A stretch of 64,000 nt of DNA from a bacterium (GTDB lineage: Bacteria; Electryoneota; Electryoneia; Electryoneales; Electryoneaceae), in assembly GCA_028278125.1 (NCBI GenBank), contig JANQEY010000199.1:5087-69086 (forward strand), in the 5' to 3' direction. Every line of letters starts with the position of its first letter. The stretch's first letter is position 1. The translations under genes were made by a program, and so were the position numbers. Below the pieces are notes generated by a model. That model was not told the DNA's origin and made no database searches. It was given only the letters and a program-made list of their open reading frames with translations. Positions 1,916-54,920 of this stretch are shown here, piece by piece.

Positions 1916-4501
1916 ATGAATTATTCCACGGAATTTCGGCAAAAAATTCTACCTTTTGTACGTAAGCCCAACAGGTACACAGGTATTGAACTGAATTGCG
2001 TCAAGAAAAAGAATCCTGATGTTACCTGGTCTCTCTGTTTCCCCGATCTATATGAAATAGGCATGTCGCACCTGGGAACGGCAATTTTATATCATTATAT
2101 AAATAAAAAGTTACCGAATGTAGCTGTTGAAAGATGTTTCCTGCCGGATAACGATGTCAGCACAAGGTTGAGAAATGAAAATATACCACTCTTGACCTTG
2201 GAATCAGGGATTGCATTGAAGGATGTTGATATAGTCGGAATAAGTCTCGGTTACGAGATGGCTATGCCTGGAATCCTCGAGCTGCTTGACCTGGGACAGA
2301 TTCCAATAAAATCAGAAGATAGAACTGACGGTGATCCGATTGTCATTGTTGGTGGTCCGGTAGTTTATAATCCAGAACCGCTGGCAGATTTTGTCGATTG
2401 TGTAGTTCCGGGAGATGGAGAGGAAATTTCAATTGAGATTTCTGAAACAATAGTTCGAGCAAAGAAAAAACAACTGTCAAGAGATCAAATCCTTGATGAA
2501 TTGTCTCGAATAGATGGAATATATTTACCTGGGCGATATGAACTCGTACAACAACTTGATGGATTTCTTGCTGTCAATAAATCAGGTATCGTTGGATTTC
2601 CGAAGTCGATCAAAGCGAGAACTTTACTGAGTCTTCTACCGGACCTCTATCCTGATAAACCTTTGGTCCCAATTAATGAAATCGTTCATGACAGGCTGAA
2701 TATTGAACTGATGCGTGGTTGTTCAAGAGGATGCAGGTTCTGCCATGCCGGTACAGTTTATCGCCCTGTCCGGGAACGAATGGCTGACGAAGTAATAAAC
2801 CAGGCGATTAATAATATTAAAGCAACCGGGTATGAAGAGATTGGGTTGACATCCTTATCAACATCAGATTACAGCTATCTATCCGAAGTATTAAATGGCC
2901 TGAGGAATGCTTTCAGAGGGCAGGCGATCTCGGTTTCATTCCCGTCATTACGTCCTGATTCTTTTACGCCGGAGATGGCGCGTGCTATGCCGGAAGGACG
3001 AAAGGGAGGATTAACGTTTGCGCCGGAAGCCGGATCGCAAAGATTAAGAGATGTAATAAATAAAAATTCTGCTGAAGATGATCTGCTATCAGCCTCCAAA
3101 CTTGCTTTTGAGGAAGGCTGGAACAGTATAAAGCTGTACTTCATGGTCGGATTACCAATTGAAACCTATGATGATCTAGATGGAATTTTCGACCTCAGCT
3201 CAAAAGTGGCAAAATTGAGAGCAAGGAAGAGCCAGAAAGTTACTGTATCCCTAAGTCCGTTTGTTCCCAAATCCCATACACCTTTTCAGTGGTACGGACA
3301 GGAAAATCCGGGGATCGTTAACGATAAAATTGAGTACTTAAAGAAGAAATTTAAAAACTCACCTGTCAGGTTTACTGCCCACAATCCGGTAAATTCACTA
3401 TACGAAGGAGCATTAGCGCGGGGAGATCGTCGCCTTGGGGCGGTTATTGAACGGGTTTGGCGAATGGGTGGAACTCTTGAGGCATGGAGTGACCAGTTCA
3501 ATCCGGAACGTTGGGAGGCGGCATTCAGGGATGAGGGATTAGATCCGGCGACATTTGTTGAGGCAAGGAGAATAGGATCGGATTTACCCTGGTCACATAT
3601 CACAAAAGGGATCGATGATACTTTCCTGGAGAAAGAGTGGAATGATGCGTTAGAAGCGCAAACGACTGAAGATTGCAGGATTGGGAAATGCCACGCATGT
3701 GGCTTGATGAAACTCATACCAAAAGGCGAGAAGGTTTGTAACACCCTGAAGAGTGAAGCCATTAAAGAGTTTAGTACAAAAACTGATATCAAAACTCCGG
3801 AAGTAGTATCAACAGTACGTTTACGCTATTCTCGCGGCAATGAATTAAAATGGACCGGACATCTAGATTTTGTACGATTATGGGACAGGTTGATCAGGAG
3901 AGCCGGGATTCCAATCGCGTATTCTCAAGGATTTCATCCCCATCCAAGATTGTCGTTCGGACCACCGTTGCCTGTTGGAGTAAGGTCGAATGATGAATTC
4001 CTTGATCTTGATATGACTGAAATTGTTGATGCGAAAGAATTTATCAAAATTATCCATGTGTATAGTATCGAGGACCTGGTTCCCCTTGAAGCGGCAGTTT
4101 TTACAAAATCACCTGGTTCTCTGGTTTCCGCAATTGAAAGATACGATTACCATATCTTGGGTGAAATTTCTGACACTCACATGCAAAATATCACAGAATG
4201 GATGATGAACAGCAGTTATTTTGTTAAGAGGATAAAGAAAAAACGTACTCGTGAGATTGATATCAGGCCTTTTGTTAAAAGCGTTGAAGAGCTCGAACCC
4301 GGGAAATTATATTTACAACTTCGTTCCGTTAACGGGGCAACGGCAAGGTTAAATGAACTATTTCAAGCTTTCGGGATGGAAAATGAAAAATATCTTGATG
4401 TTGTCCGTGATTCGGTGTATATATCAGCAAACGGTGAATGGACAGATCCAATTAAGATGGCGATCCGAGCCCAGGAACCATTGTCAACTGTGAACTGTTA
4501 A
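1916..4501 (+). CDS. B12-binding radical SAM protein fused to DUF2344 domain (TIGR03960 + TIGR03936)
   Basis: The 861-residue protein has an N-terminal cobalamin-binding-like region (about 30-180), then a radical SAM core with a Cx3Cx2C cluster motif, CSRGCRFC, near residue 272. The C-terminal third, from about residue 635, is a DUF2344 domain starting RYSRGNELKWTGHLDFVRLW and containing SQGFHPHPRLSFG. In many bacteria these are two adjacent genes or one fusion next to RNase G, as here. The enzyme probably modifies an RNA or protein target, but the reaction is not established to my knowledge. Its TAA stop shares one base with the rng start codon, implying translational coupling. Confidence 0.92.
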   Translation: MNYSTEFRQKILPFVRKPNRYTGIELNCVKKKNPDVTWSLCFPDLYEIGMSHLGTAILYHYINKKLPNVAVERCFLPDNDVSTRLRNENIPLLTLESGIALKDVDIVGISLGYEMAMPGILELLDLGQIPIKSEDRTDGDPIVIVGGPVVYNPEPLADFVDCVVPGDGEEISIEISETIVRAKKKQLSRDQILDELSRIDGIYLPGRYELVQQLDGFLAVNKSGIVGFPKSIKARTLLSLLPDLYPDKPLVPINEIVHDRLNIELMRGCSRGCRFCHAGTVYRPVRERMADEVINQAINNIKATGYEEIGLTSLSTSDYSYLSEVLNGLRNAFRGQAISVSFPSLRPDSFTPEMARAMPEGRKGGLTFAPEAGSQRLRDVINKNSAEDDLLSASKLAFEEGWNSIKLYFMVGLPIETYDDLDGIFDLSSKVAKLRARKSQKVTVSLSPFVPKSHTPFQWYGQENPGIVNDKIEYLKKKFKNSPVRFTAHNPVNSLYEGALARGDRRLGAVIERVWRMGGTLEAWSDQFNPERWEAAFRDEGLDPATFVEARRIGSDLPWSHITKGIDDTFLEKEWNDALEAQTTEDCRIGKCHACGLMKLIPKGEKVCNTLKSEAIKEFSTKTDIKTPEVVSTVRLRYSRGNELKWTGHLDFVRLWDRLIRRAGIPIAYSQGFHPHPRLSFGPPLPVGVRSNDEFLDLDMTEIVDAKEFIKIIHVYSIEDLVPLEAAVFTKSPGSLVSAIERYDYHILGEISDTHMQNITEWMMNSSYFVKRIKKKRTREIDIRPFVKSVEELEPGKLYLQLRSVNGATARLNELFQAFGMENEKYLDVVRDSVYISANGEWTDPIKMAIRAQEPLSTVNC

Positions 4502-47306: not shown

Positions 47307-49586
47307 CTAGAACATATACCCGATTCTCAGATGTGATATTGATTCATTCACTGTTCCCCAGTGGGAAGTAAACTGGATAGGTCCAAAACGAGTGAGAATT
47401 CCTATTGTCAACCCCGCACCTGCCTCCACGTCTTTACCATCAAATTCCAATGACCACTCATCACGAACCCGGCCAATATTTCCTTCCAACACAACAAACC
47501 TGTTATTCCACGTTTCCCATTGGACAGCGATACTGCCGATCTGCTTTGTGTCGCCAGCTAATTGCCCGGATTTTGCTCCAAGAAAACTGTCTATACCTCC
47601 TGCCGAGTATCCTGGAAAAATCGTAAAATCATCGTGTGTTAATGATCCGAGTGTAACTGCGGCTTGAATTGTGAAACGACTACTCACAGGTACATTTGCC
47701 TGAGCGGTAAAATCTCTGAGAATAAACGACTTGTTATTGACCTGGTCATATAAACTTTGATTGTAAGCTGCTTCAATAAATAGACCGCTTCTGGGAAAAT
47801 TGATCCTGTCCAAAGTGTCGTACCAGAATATCGCGAACCAACTGAAAAATTCCTGTTTTATATCAGACTCATTATTGTCATCCTCTGGTGGATTAATTGC
47901 ATTAAAATTGTCAGAGATTGCTGCCAGCCCTATCCCGAAAAGAGTTGTTGTAGAAAATATTGAGCCGACGAAAAGCTCGGTTGAACTGGAATTATGGTCG
48001 TAGGGAATTGAGACACCCGGTTCTTTGTTAAATATAAAATCTGATTCATAGTTGTTCAGCTGCAACCTTATTCCCAGACGAGGCTGGATCCCGGTATGGA
48101 CAAAGTATGAGAGAGTTGAACCACTTATATTTCCCAGACGAACATCAGCTACTGCCATAGATCCCTGGAGACCAAGATTATGCCTTGTCAGATTAAAAAT
48201 TACAGCAGCTTTATCATCGCTATCGTAGTGAAAACCAAATCTGACCGTGTTTGGATTCTTTTCAATTAGTTTAAAATGTAATATTGTGCCATCAGGTGTC
48301 GCTTCGAGACGGTAGGTAACTCTTTCAAAAAACTGGGTGCTGTAAACACGTTCAACACTTCTTTGAATCTCTGAACGTGCGATCCAGGTCTCTTTTTTTA
48401 TGCCAAGCTGTGTTTTAACAAGTCTAAGTGGTGTTTTATCCAGTCCCTCTATTTCAATCGATGAGACATAAATGGTATCCGGGCTGATTGGCTTATAAAC
48501 CGGTTTTCCCCGTCCGATGGATTTTAATGAATCTGCCAAAGCTCTCAACCTCGGCAGAAAATTGATTGCCGCGTTTTCACCAATTTCGATAATTTCCTCA
48601 ACTCGTCCAAATTCGTGCATTGCAACATCATCCAGAGCCGGTTCGATGAGAATATCACAGAGATATCTTTGGTGGGTGTTTTCTTCTGCACTTTGGAATG
48701 CCATTGTCTGGTTGGTTATAGACCACAGGTCGTTAATGGACTCAACATCCTGCAAAGGCGTTCCCACGTCGACACCAATAATAAATTCAGCCCCAAGATC
48801 TATAGCGTCTGTCGCTGGCAGGTTTCGAGCGATATATCCATCAATCAATAATTTATCTTCAATCCAGACAGGTGTCATTAACGATGGGATAGACATACTG
48901 GCTCTAATTGCTTCAGAAAGAAATCCCCTGTTTAATACTACGGGTTCACCGTTCTCGAGATCTGTTGCTACACAAGCGAAGGGAACGGGAAAATCACTGA
49001 AATTCTCAATATCATGGACAGGCCAGGTAAGTTCAGTAATTTTATTACTGATTTTTTGACCGGGGATTACGCCGGTTGGCAGTTCAATGTCCCAGCCTTT
49101 TATCGGAAGTGAAAGAGTATACCTCGAATCATAGAATTTCTGCTCCATGGCCAAAGACCTGCGGCTTGGAGTATCGTCAAATATATCTGTCCAGTCAGTG
49201 TTAACGAATATGGATTCCAGTTCTGCGGCCGAATATCCAATCGAATATAAACCACCGACAACGGCACCCATGCTGGTTCCTGTAATTACCTCAATCTCCA
49301 GGTTTGCTTCTTCAAGAATCTTTAAGACACCTATATGAGCAATACCTTTTGCCCCACCACCACTCAGTACTAGACCAAGCACAGGACGATTCGGCTTTGA
49401 TTCGTCTAATTCTGATTCAACAGCAGAACCTGGTTCCTGAGAAATAAACCAGGAATATTCGTCATGATTCTCCTGTTTGTTTATCGGATTATTAACGTTT
49501 TTAGCGGGAGTAGTTAATGGTGAGCATAACAAAGCAACTATAATAATTATTGTGAGATTAGCGCATTTAGAGTAGGATTTGGTCAT
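47307..49586 (-). CDS. Patatin-like phospholipase with POTRA and outer-membrane barrel (type Vd-like)
   Basis: A 759-residue protein with a signal peptide and a patatin domain. The oxyanion region is LSGGGAKGIAHIG, the catalytic Ser lies in GTSMG (S105) and Asp in LIDGYIARN. A POTRA region (SSIEIEGLDKTPLRLVKTQL) follows, and then a BamA/D15-like barrel ending in LRIGYMF. This layout resembles PlpD-type (type Vd) autotransported lipases. The start is ATG 49586, fitting the signal peptide; ATG 49649 would add 21 residues. Neither has a clear Shine-Dalgarno sequence. Confidence 0.86.
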   Translation of the reverse strand: MTKSYSKCANLTIIIIVALLCSPLTTPAKNVNNPINKQENHDEYSWFISQEPGSAVESELDESKPNRPVLGLVLSGGGAKGIAHIGVLKILEEANLEIEVITGTSMGAVVGGLYSIGYSAAELESIFVNTDWTDIFDDTPSRRSLAMEQKFYDSRYTLSLPIKGWDIELPTGVIPGQKISNKITELTWPVHDIENFSDFPVPFACVATDLENGEPVVLNRGFLSEAIRASMSIPSLMTPVWIEDKLLIDGYIARNLPATDAIDLGAEFIIGVDVGTPLQDVESINDLWSITNQTMAFQSAEENTHQRYLCDILIEPALDDVAMHEFGRVEEIIEIGENAAINFLPRLRALADSLKSIGRGKPVYKPISPDTIYVSSIEIEGLDKTPLRLVKTQLGIKKETWIARSEIQRSVERVYSTQFFERVTYRLEATPDGTILHFKLIEKNPNTVRFGFHYDSDDKAAVIFNLTRHNLGLQGSMAVADVRLGNISGSTLSYFVHTGIQPRLGIRLQLNNYESDFIFNKEPGVSIPYDHNSSSTELFVGSIFSTTTLFGIGLAAISDNFNAINPPEDDNNESDIKQEFFSWFAIFWYDTLDRINFPRSGLFIEAAYNQSLYDQVNNKSFILRDFTAQANVPVSSRFTIQAAVTLGSLTHDDFTIFPGYSAGGIDSFLGAKSGQLAGDTKQIGSIAVQWETWNNRFVVLEGNIGRVRDEWSLEFDGKDVEAGAGLTIGILTRFGPIQFTSHWGTVNESISHLRIGYMF

Positions 49587-49887
49587 CTTAGTTTTTAGTA
49601 GATCAGCTTGTGAGATATTATTTTGAAAGATATCTTCTAACAATAACATTTACAAATATTACTGGGAGAAATGTTGTATTTCACATATCTCGTTAAATGT
49701 GAAAGATTTAACTATTGGCCAGTCTTTACTCTCTAAGAATAATGATCTTTTTTTAACAATCTTTATGCCCTAAATTTGCTGACGTACAGATTTTTGAAGA
49801 TAACTAAGATTCATTACAAGAATATTAAGTAATCCTTTAAAATACTTCTTTTCAAGGGATGATCTAACATTAGTAAGGTGACCTGTC

Positions 49888-53673: not shown

Positions 53674-54034
53674 GGGGACGATTGGATTCGACGGGGCGAT
53701 GGGAGATGTCACTTGCGCGTCGGGAGGGTCTGCAGTCCCGTACCCCTGCAGTCAAACACAAAAATGCCGATGATTACGGCTATGCTCTCGCAGCCTAATT
53801 AAAGGTTGCGCGTCCGTGTAAAATTTCGTCCGTTCGGTTTTATACAGGGCGTCGCTTAGAACGGTCTGCACGGTGAAAATCGCCAGGGATTTTACCGTTA
53901 AGATTCACCTGGCTGGATTTTTCCCGCCTGCCGGCCGGCACTAGGGAATTATCGAGATTGCAGTAGACCGGATACACGCGTAGAGGGTGCCATGTCCCCG
54001 TCTCCGGACCCGGGTTCGATTCCCGGCGTCTCCA
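53674..54034 (+). ncRNA. ssrA: Transfer-messenger RNA (tmRNA)
   Basis: The tmRNA rescues stalled ribosomes. The 5' end GGGGACGATTGGATTCGACG and 3' end CCGGG-TTCGATT-CCCGG plus CGTCTCC form the tRNA-like part. The acceptor stem pairs GGGGACG with CGTCTCC and keeps the G3-U wobble for alanine charging. CCA is not encoded (ends A-CTA), so it must be added. The tag frame ends YALAA at GCA GCC TAA (53790-53798). The tag probably reads either AVKHKNADDYGYALAA from GCA 53748, or a shorter form from AAA 53754 after AGTC; the resume codon is not settled. Length is about 361 bases. Confidence 0.95.
53993..54007 (+). repeat. 15-base repeat, copy in tmRNA
   Basis: TGTCCCCGTCTCCGG inside the 3' part of ssrA. 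An identical copy lies at 54801-54815, inside the end of the second GIY-YIG gene. Confidence 0.9.
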
Positions 54035-54036
54035 CT
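54015..54036 (+). repeat. tmRNA 3'-end direct repeat, copy 1 (native)
   Basis: Begins TTCGATTCCCGGCGTC and runs 22 bases through the T-loop and acceptor 3' strand. It is repeated exactly at 54861-54882 and with three changes at 54507-54528. Confidence 0.92.
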
Positions 54037-54186
54037 AGGCTTCGTTTCGCTCACATGAGAGCGAAATGGAGCCTGCCACGGCGAAGTCACAGACGAAGCC
54101 GGGAATTCTTCACACAACCGGCGAAACTACGCCCTGGCAAGCTCATCTATTAAACAATTTATAGTGACTCCCAACGATAACTAATC

Positions 54187-54435
54187 ATGAAAAACTATCA
54201 TTACGTATATATACTTGTGTCTGAGAAAAATCCAAATTGTCATTATACAGGAATAACTGAAGATTTGGAGTCTCGGTTAAAGGCTCATAACGCTGGACAA
54301 TCACCTCACACCGCGAAGAACAGACCATGGCAAATTGAAACTGCAATTGCATTTCATTCTAAAGTAAAAGCATTAGCATTCGAAAAATACCTCAAATCAC
54401 ATTCAGGGCGGGCATTTGCTTCGAAGCACTTCTAG
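54187..54435 (+). CDS. Small GIY-YIG nuclease-domain protein 1
   Basis: A single-domain GIY-YIG endonuclease-type protein of 82 residues. The first motif is YVYILVS and the second HYTGIT (YTG in place of YIG). R in LESRLKAH and E in FEKYLKSHSGR occupy the catalytic positions. This domain occurs in homing and repair nucleases as well as many small bacterial proteins of unknown role. No DNA-binding extension is present. ATG 54187 lacks a clear Shine-Dalgarno sequence. It lies 150 bases after ssrA inside the insert. Confidence 0.85.
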   Translation: MKNYHYVYILVSEKNPNCHYTGITEDLESRLKAHNAGQSPHTAKNRPWQIETAIAFHSKVKALAFEKYLKSHSGRAFASKHF

Positions 54436-54491
54436 TTCAGTCACAACGAATTTTTTTTCTGAGTACAAGACAGTTGATCTCTATCAGAATT

Positions 54492-54566
54492 TGCGCCTGA
54501 GGCGCATTCGATTTTCGGCGTCTCCTCTTCGAACCCACAGAAATGTGGGTTCACTCGTTTGGGGGA
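54492..54566 (+). repeat. 75-base module repeat, copy A
   Basis: Consists of a hairpin TGCGCC-TGA-GGCGCA, a degenerate tmRNA 3'-end copy, and hairpin GAACCCACA-GAAA-TGTGGGTTC, ending in GGGGGA. It is 70/75 identical to copy B at 54846-54920, by eye. It ends four bases before the GIY-YIG 2 start. Confidence 0.9.
54507..54528 (+). repeat. tmRNA 3'-end direct repeat, copy 2 (degenerate)
   Basis: Matches the native tmRNA 3' end at 19 of 22 positions; two C-to-T changes fall in the T-arm and one A-to-T change next to the acceptor end. It lacks the upstream T-stem strand, so it cannot fold as a tmRNA end. Confidence 0.85.
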
Positions 54567-54569
54567 ATA

Positions 54570-54833
54570 ATGATTACAGTTTATGTAATAGAAAGCATTG
54601 AAAATGGAAAAAGGTATGTTGGTATAACAAACAACCTTGGAAGAAGGTTAAGGGAACACAGGTCTAAACAGACAAAAGGGAGCGAGATACTAGGAAAATT
54701 CAAATTAATCTATAAAGAAGAACACGATGATTATGCATCAGCACGAGAACGAGAAAAGTTTCTGAAATCTGGTACTGGCAAAGACTTTCTTAATCAAGTC
54801 TGTCCCCGTCTCCGGTCCACCTCTGGCGGATAA
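54570..54833 (+). CDS. Small GIY-YIG nuclease-domain protein 2
   Basis: An 87-residue GIY-YIG protein: VYVIES and RYVGIT as the two tyrosine motifs, R in LGRRLREH and E in AREREKFLKSGTGK. ATG 54570 follows GGGGGA closely, which is part of the flanking repeat, so the repeat supplies its ribosome site. The last eight or so residues (CPRLRSTSGG) are read through sequence identical to ssrA (TGTCCCCGTCTCCGG). This is a hybrid end produced by the duplication. Confidence 0.83.
   Translation: MITVYVIESIENGKRYVGITNNLGRRLREHRSKQTKGSEILGKFKLIYKEEHDDYASAREREKFLKSGTGKDFLNQVCPRLRSTSGG
54801..54815 (+). repeat. 15-base repeat, copy in GIY-YIG gene 2
   Basis: Identical to ssrA bases 53993-54007. It encodes part of the C-terminal end of GIY-YIG protein 2. 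Confidence 0.9.
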
Positions 54834-54845
54834 AACCCAGGCTTG

Positions 54846-54920
54846 TGCGCCTGTGGCGCATTCGATTCCCGGCGTCTCCACTTCGAACCCACAGAAATGT
54901 GGGTTCACTCGTTGGGGGGA
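54846..54920 (+). repeat. 75-base module repeat, copy B (no gene follows)
   Basis: Same hairpins and tmRNA-derived core as copy A, but here the core matches the tmRNA exactly, and no GIY-YIG gene follows; the next gene, on the minus strand, ends at 54967. Confidence 0.9.
54861..54882 (+). repeat. tmRNA 3'-end direct repeat, copy 3 (perfect)
   Basis: Identical over 22 bases to the native ssrA 3' end at 54015-54036. A candidate attR-like end of the insert. Confidence 0.92.

Follow-up and report, generated by a model that had tools for sequence, protein, structure and literature searches.

In a 64,000-nucleotide stretch of bacterial DNA (Electryoneota; contig JANQEY010000199.1; hereafter the window), the gene for transfer-messenger RNA (tmRNA), ssrA, is followed by two genes for small GIY-YIG nucleases, GIY1 and GIY2, and by two further copies of its own 3′ end. 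We read this locus, with a probability of roughly two in three, as an ssrA gene into which free-standing GIY-YIG mini-elements inserted twice in succession by intronless homing. The window case is one member of a large, widespread family of very small mobile elements, of which the typical example would be a unit of ~0.4 kb with a single GIY-YIG nuclease of ~85 residues and no further gene. Genes for transfer RNA (tRNA) and tmRNA are among the most conserved bacterial DNA, and their ends are the classic landing sites of large integrase-carrying islands; in these elements, one ~85-residue nuclease would serve as a minimal package that exploits the safe haven used by such islands.

Copies of the tmRNA 3′ end in the window

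The initial annotation had drawn attention to an exact repeat of the tmRNA 3′ end, and the repeat holds in every letter: TTCGATTCCCGGCGTCTCCACT stands at 54015–54036 and again at 54861–54882, at a spacing of 846 bp, where the chance expectation for an exact 22-mer pair in 64 kb of random sequence is ~1e-4 by hand arithmetic. In all, three copies of the tmRNA 3′ end are present at the locus, the third of which, of ~43 nt (54801–54882), is interrupted by a palindromic insert. Because 53993–54010 is matched again by 54801–54818 (18 nt, 94%; repeat analysis), 54801–54815 and 54861–54882 can be joined as one ~43-nt copy of 53993–54036 with 45 nt in between. The split was recovered by two-piece alignment as well (score 73), with break points a few bases from those set manually. 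The second and third copies lie within an 84-nt direct repeat (90%) that includes the hairpin GAACCCACAGAAATGTGGGTTC, which suggests that one insertion also carried along a copy of the hairpin in the 3′ flank. Hairpins of the form GCCnnnGGC with a stem of at least 6 number only two in the 64 kb, TGCGCCTGAGGCGCA at 54492 and TGCGCCTGTGGCGCA at 54846, each directly before the second or third copy; the same count in ten shuffles of the window was 0 or 1. For the terminator-like hairpin directly 3′ of the intact gene (Table 1), the GIY1 insertion is possibly the source.

As had been noted at the outset, the enclosed DNA lacks an integrase, and the sole family matches there are the two GIY-YIG genes. 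No integrase or transposase Pfam match was obtained for any of the ten open reading frames at 46.5–60 kb, two of which match no Pfam family at all; no integrase lies in the unit, and the scan was confined to this part of the window. A group I intron with a homing endonuclease was considered and rejected, since Rfam finds tmRNA alone in the window and no intron RNA.

The nucleases themselves are little more than a catalytic core. In GIY2, PF01541 spans residues 2–71 of 87, and the catalytic columns of Arg26, His30 and Glu62 are kept in 82 of 82 alignment rows. Profile comparison gives a modest match to UPF0213 (E 5.9e-5), PHROGs returns a weak match of GIY2 to homing endonucleases, and PADLOC returns one weak match, to GIY1. 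A phage origin was weighed and not retained: neither nuclease matches any of 50,697 phage records at E ≤ 1e-3. IMG/VR yields four relatives, in whose examined flanks ARAGORN finds no RNA gene, and relatives occur in ten plasmid records, each at below 60% identity, nine from Rhizobiales by genus name and one from Azospirillum.

Table 1. Features of the ssrA locus, in window positions
Feature	Position	Strand	Evidence
tmRNA gene (ssrA), intact	53674–54036	+	ARAGORN 53674–54035, tag ADDYGYALAA; Rfam RF00023 53674–54037, 151.9 bits
Duplicated stretch, tmRNA 3′ end (T-arm and acceptor 3′ strand)	53993–54036	+	Repeat families D2, D3
Strong terminator-like hairpin directly 3′ of tmRNA	54036–54075	+	17-bp stem, z −6.48
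GIY1, 82-residue GIY-YIG nuclease	54187–54435	+	PF01541, E 9.4e-15
Palindrome TGCGCCTGAGGCGCA ahead of first remnant	54492–54506		Repeat and palindrome analysis
Second tmRNA 3′ end copy, decayed	54507–54528	+	Within D2, 54496–54528, 76% over 33 nt
Hairpin GAACCCACAGAAATGTGGGTTC, copy 1	54531–54552	+	Repeat and hairpin analysis
GIY2, 87-residue GIY-YIG nuclease	54570–54833	+	PF01541, E 1.3e-16
Split third tmRNA 3′ end copy, left piece, within GIY2 end	54801–54815	+	D3; two-piece alignment
Insert splitting third copy, ending in palindrome TGCGCCTGTGGCGCA (54846–54860)	54816–54860		Repeat, palindrome and two-piece alignment
Split third copy, right piece, exact 22-bp repeat of 54015–54036	54861–54882	+	Exact match; repeat analysis
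Hairpin GAACCCACAGAAATGTGGGTTC, copy 2	54885–54906	+	Repeat analysis

GIY-YIG genes beside tRNA and tmRNA genes

The initial annotation envisaged other GIY-YIG modules flanked by tRNA or tmRNA genes and copies of the RNA end, and many exist. GIY2 has 180 homologs at E ≤ 0.001, and among the 120 listed, many annotated N-termini read, in our view, like the translation of a tRNA 3′ end. Genome contigs were scanned with a 32-row alignment, which confirmed 330 relatives; the family counts given here use the best 80 of these. At 65 of the 80 loci, a same-strand tRNA or tmRNA gene lies within 300 bp of the GIY2 relative, as against 13 of 987 background positions in the same loci (L071 has an opposite-strand RNA gene besides the same-strand one). 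Among the 15 loci that fall outside this count, Rfam finds a truncated tmRNA or tRNA at three (L014, L019, L034); tRNA-Pro lies at 462 bp in L039; an RNA 3′ end flanks both sides in six, as seen by eye (L003, L008, L010, L013, L023, L028); tRNA-Pro is present in split pieces in three, again by eye (L005, L022, L045); and L060 has no trace of an RNA gene. With the two window genes included, the RNA genes hit comprise 15 tRNA isotypes and tmRNA by ARAGORN, and hosts span 30 phyla, counted from the 71 of 80 loci that name a phylum. GIY1-type genes were sought only in the ten genomes already carrying a GIY2-type unit, where the nearest same-strand RNA gene is no more than 300 bp away at 13 of 20 places and 443 bp away at L192.

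In genome G147 (L184/L191), three GIY-YIG genes alternate with tRNA-Pro, tRNA-Arg and tRNA-Ala on a single strand. At L064 (3001–3495), which is also among the 15 loci outside the 300-bp count, a GIY-YIG gene directly precedes a tRNA-Asn-like 5′ half with a group I intron after it (RF00028, 82.7 bits), one tRNA here bearing two kinds of mobile element. At L023 (31–99, minus strand), an int-alpA RNA match barely above the gathering score lies near a GIY-YIG site with tRNA-Val-like ends.

Two arrangements occur within the family. Group A begins with the intact RNA gene, after which come the GIY-YIG gene and another copy of the RNA 3′ end, mostly from the T-loop motif TTCRANTCC on; in group B, the D-arm form, a copy of the 5′ part precedes the GIY-YIG gene, and the intact RNA gene comes last. 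Labels were assigned to 79 of 82 rows (45 A and 34 B), 14 of them on inspection by eye and those of the two window rows manually, with L060, L070 and L071 omitted; they were compared with a quickly built tree (82 rows, 80 columns). On this tree, arrangement changes 11 times, as against 19–31 times in 300 shuffles. The changes number 28 for RNA isotype (37–47 when shuffled; 65 rows) and 39 for host phylum (50–56 when shuffled; 71 rows). Because there are fewer changes on the tree than in the shuffles, the lineage of the nuclease tracks the side of insertion and, less strictly, the RNA that is hit. GIY1 and GIY2 are separated by a starred branch of the tree—GIY1 sits on a long branch and its placement is unsure—and the units of the window are therefore not a simple duplication of one unit.

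The split copy recurs across the family. Two-piece alignment was applied to 73 RNA–GIY pairs from 67 loci (the window counting as two, of which that of GIY2 scored and that of GIY1 did not). In 44 of the pairs it found the RNA gene's own partial copy, split, versus 4 of 365 controls that used the RNA gene of another isotype. Inside the insert, a stem of at least 6 was found in 33 of the 44 split copies, versus 59 of 880 random segments. Six group A tRNAs share an identical break, the left piece running to −24 and the right from −22 as counted from the RNA end, and two tmRNAs match this break when counted without CCA. In all 39 tRNA cases, the stem/loop boundary nearest to the break belongs to the D- or T-arm, and in 21 of the 39 the break falls exactly on a boundary, where 11 would be expected (simulated P 0.0006, an optimistic value because related loci are not independent). 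Palindromes are likewise concentrated, with 129 in 75.4 kb near GIY-YIG genes versus 7 in 377.8 kb elsewhere; one type has 0–21 forward copies per genome across 11 genomes. Beside several intact tRNA genes, a tRNA remnant and palindrome are found with no GIY-YIG gene (L090, L098 and L100, by eye, and L151). Such remnants seem to be deletion derivatives, but they are not the source of all palindrome copies. In genome G013, a 19-nt palindrome unit forms head-to-tail arrays at the ends of contigs C80 and C188.

Comparison of relatives shows that the insert is derived, that it enters RNA-gene arms as a GIY-only unit without disrupting the RNA gene, that some kin carry it and others do not, and that insertion has happened repeatedly. 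For tRNA-Met, 40 genomes from the Cloacimonadota family of L030 were searched and 30 loci compared. L238 and L242 have the empty site: there the query pieces from the two sides of the insert overlap (24 and 23 nt), so that the RNA end is present once, between two syntenic flanks. L234 carries a 392-bp insert, with new sequence after the intact tRNA-Met and the old flank after the split copy; the 5′ flank has stayed with the intact RNA gene, and the former 3′ flank now lies beyond the split copy. Five of the 30 loci are occupied, five end within 400 bp, 11 do not contain the site, and nine show no GIY-YIG gene over the 400 bp downstream of the tRNA, L246 among them having a second copy of the tRNA end. 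In L252 (2243–3154, tRNA strand), tandem GIY units that look identical by eye place three tRNA-Met ends at 395-bp spacing. This double unit, which is a fresh amplification, has the same layout as the window.

Other RNA genes vary in a comparable way. For tRNA-Arg in Winogradskyella (60 genomes searched, best 30 loci compared), 26 of 30 loci are empty, with a yqeY–tRNA gap of 4–59 bp, and two are occupied, by GIY proteins that are 41% identical and with D-arm breaks that differ by eye; L151 retains its remnant and palindrome without a GIY-YIG gene, and L150 lies at a contig end. In an Opitutaceae genus (nine genomes), tRNA-Pro(ggg) was compared in eight: a GIY-YIG gene lies downstream in L204 and upstream in L216, none was seen in six of the eight (L211 offering just 64 bp upstream), and L208 is syntenic on the downstream side. 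For tmRNA, 41 relatives of an FCB genome were searched, giving 20 loci, 18 of them with a tmRNA by ARAGORN; a downstream GIY match is present in 6 of the 18 (two partial) and absent in 12, with synteny not established.

Mechanism and alternative readings

Under intronless homing, the element would enter tRNA and tmRNA genes at the T-arm or, in another branch, at the D-arm. The nuclease would cleave the arm of an RNA gene that is still empty, and the element would be installed by repair templated on an occupied copy. An intact RNA gene would be left on one side and, on the other, a partial copy that short GC palindromes often interrupt. Since the element would come with the RNA end, its insertion would not have to be lethal. 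By lying on the same strand, the nuclease gene could ride on transcription of the RNA gene, and the palindrome may protect the remnant from renewed cutting.

Cutting by the GIY-YIG nuclease and copying by repair are the inferred steps in this reading, and a number of observations weigh against it. The initial annotation's proposal of a mobile mini-element is supported in relatives by empty sites with a single RNA end, at tRNA-Met and tRNA-Arg, but not in the window's own lineage, where no empty ssrA site was found; only six genomes, of another phylum (SM23_31), were searched, and these gave no match at E ≤ 1e-40. Among matches to the neighbouring M23 protein, used to look for kin, one of the closest is BMS3Bbin04 and weaker ones are of FCB type. 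Neither Pfam nor the structure model reveals a DNA-binding domain besides the 87-residue core, although binding could reside in the core; free-standing homing endonucleases usually have such a separate module, but are not defined by it. The tree is poorly resolved, with 42 of 79 inner branches open; ARAGORN finds no RNA gene at 6 of 20 GIY1-relative loci; two-piece alignment detects no split copy in 29 of 73 pairs; breaks within 1 nt of a stem/loop boundary are not enriched (27 of 39, 25 expected, P 0.30, with the same dependence among loci); and palindromes are found away from RNA genes too. The intact RNA gene in an occupied genome moreover retains the arm, so that self-protection is a difficulty for this reading.

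The hairpins invite another reading, which we consider rather doubtful: that the nuclease recognises its target by structure, not by sequence, and cleaves the hairpins or cruciforms into which tRNA arms fold, the palindromes being part of the insert and the whole a hairpin transposon instead of a homing gene. It would be in keeping with the breaks at D- and T-arms and their exact coincidence with stem/loop boundaries, with the stems inside inserts, with the crowding of palindromes near GIY-YIG genes, and with the palindromes held by GIY-less tRNA remnants. Slx1, which processes branched DNA, is moreover among the structural matches. We tentatively entertain, as one joint proposition, a new class of mobile element, in which a minimal structure-reading GIY-YIG nuclease would target the hairpin arms common to all tRNA and tmRNA genes and go in along with palindromic hairpins, the RNA gene being left intact and the palindromes forming part of what is transposed; such an element would be neither a case of classical homing nor an integrase island.

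More conventional explanations fare less well. The initial annotation had weighed mobilisation in trans against GIY-YIG cleavage with repair copying, and it is the latter that we favour. A cargo mini-island mobilised in trans by a tyrosine integrase, with the RNA 3′ end as attachment site, is unlikely. The repeat does span T-loop to RNA 3′ end as in integrase islands, and islands of that kind are a well-known source of partial tRNA copies (PMC9897764); yet no positive evidence for trans mobilisation was found, and it is disfavoured because the unit recurs with the GIY-YIG gene alone, a D-arm form carries its duplication on the 5′ side, and a palindrome often interrupts the second end. The absence of an integrase from the unit and the split second end kept this explanation from being our first choice, although the flanking repeat of the RNA end fits it. 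Ordinary tandem duplication of the tmRNA end, with GIY-YIG genes there by chance, is very improbable: whole-unit tandems occur, as in L252, and the window alone cannot decide, but syntenic empty sites already refute it for the relatives, and the many RNA isotypes and phyla and the polymorphism within a genus argue against it too. It is scarcely credible that the nuclease is a host RNA processing or repair factor kept beside tRNA genes for that role, for which same-strand placement and a known GIY-YIG/TrmH fusion (PMC1564403) could be cited, when presence is patchy within a genus and insertion scars flank the RNA gene. We regard the GIY units as genuine mobile mini-elements and as a variety of free-standing homing endonuclease that stands a fair chance of forming a separate class.

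Elsewhere in the window, 47307–49649 (minus strand) encodes a 780-residue protein with patatin, POTRA and Omp85 domains, and 1916–4501 (plus strand) encodes a single 861-residue protein that fuses TIGR03960 radical SAM with TIGR03936.

Relation to known systems

A bacterial GIY-YIG family inserted at tRNA and tmRNA genes has apparently gone undescribed so far. In the literature searched, which left most subscription journals and bioRxiv outside, we recognised no paper on GIY-YIG genes inserted at bacterial tRNA or tmRNA ends, and no tRNA-gene insertion turned up there for the UPF0213 proteins (1zg2, 1ywl) or Slx1. The family would account for many small GIY-YIG proteins whose starts, as we read them, apparently run through a tRNA end, as well as for many partial tRNA copies. 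It also offers a testable system in which a nuclease exploits a target that the host cannot lose.

Parallels exist with several kinds of element. REP/REPIN sequences and Rickettsia palindromic elements (RPEs) likewise recur as short GC hairpins, and one report places RPEs inside tmRNA and gives their length as 105–146 bp (PMC2229807); the inserts described here are of 15 to ~55 nt and are concentrated at GIY-linked remnants of RNA genes. Integrase islands and prophages at tRNA and ssrA 3′ ends share the repeat from T-loop to RNA end, the intact gene and the one-copy empty site, whereas the present unit is ~0.4 kb and without an integrase, its second copy is often split by a palindrome, and a 5′-end (D-arm) form exists. 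The nearest described case that we found is SegB of T4. The free-standing GIY-YIG homing endonucleases of T4-like phages to which it belongs are also intron-independent and situated at tRNA genes, and both SegB homologs near phage tRNAs and microhomology between a tRNA and segB have been reported (PMC2988022, PMC13096335). Unlike SegB, the elements described here reside in bacterial contigs, consist of one ~85-residue core, and insert at the T- or D-arm with a copy of the RNA end and with palindromes.
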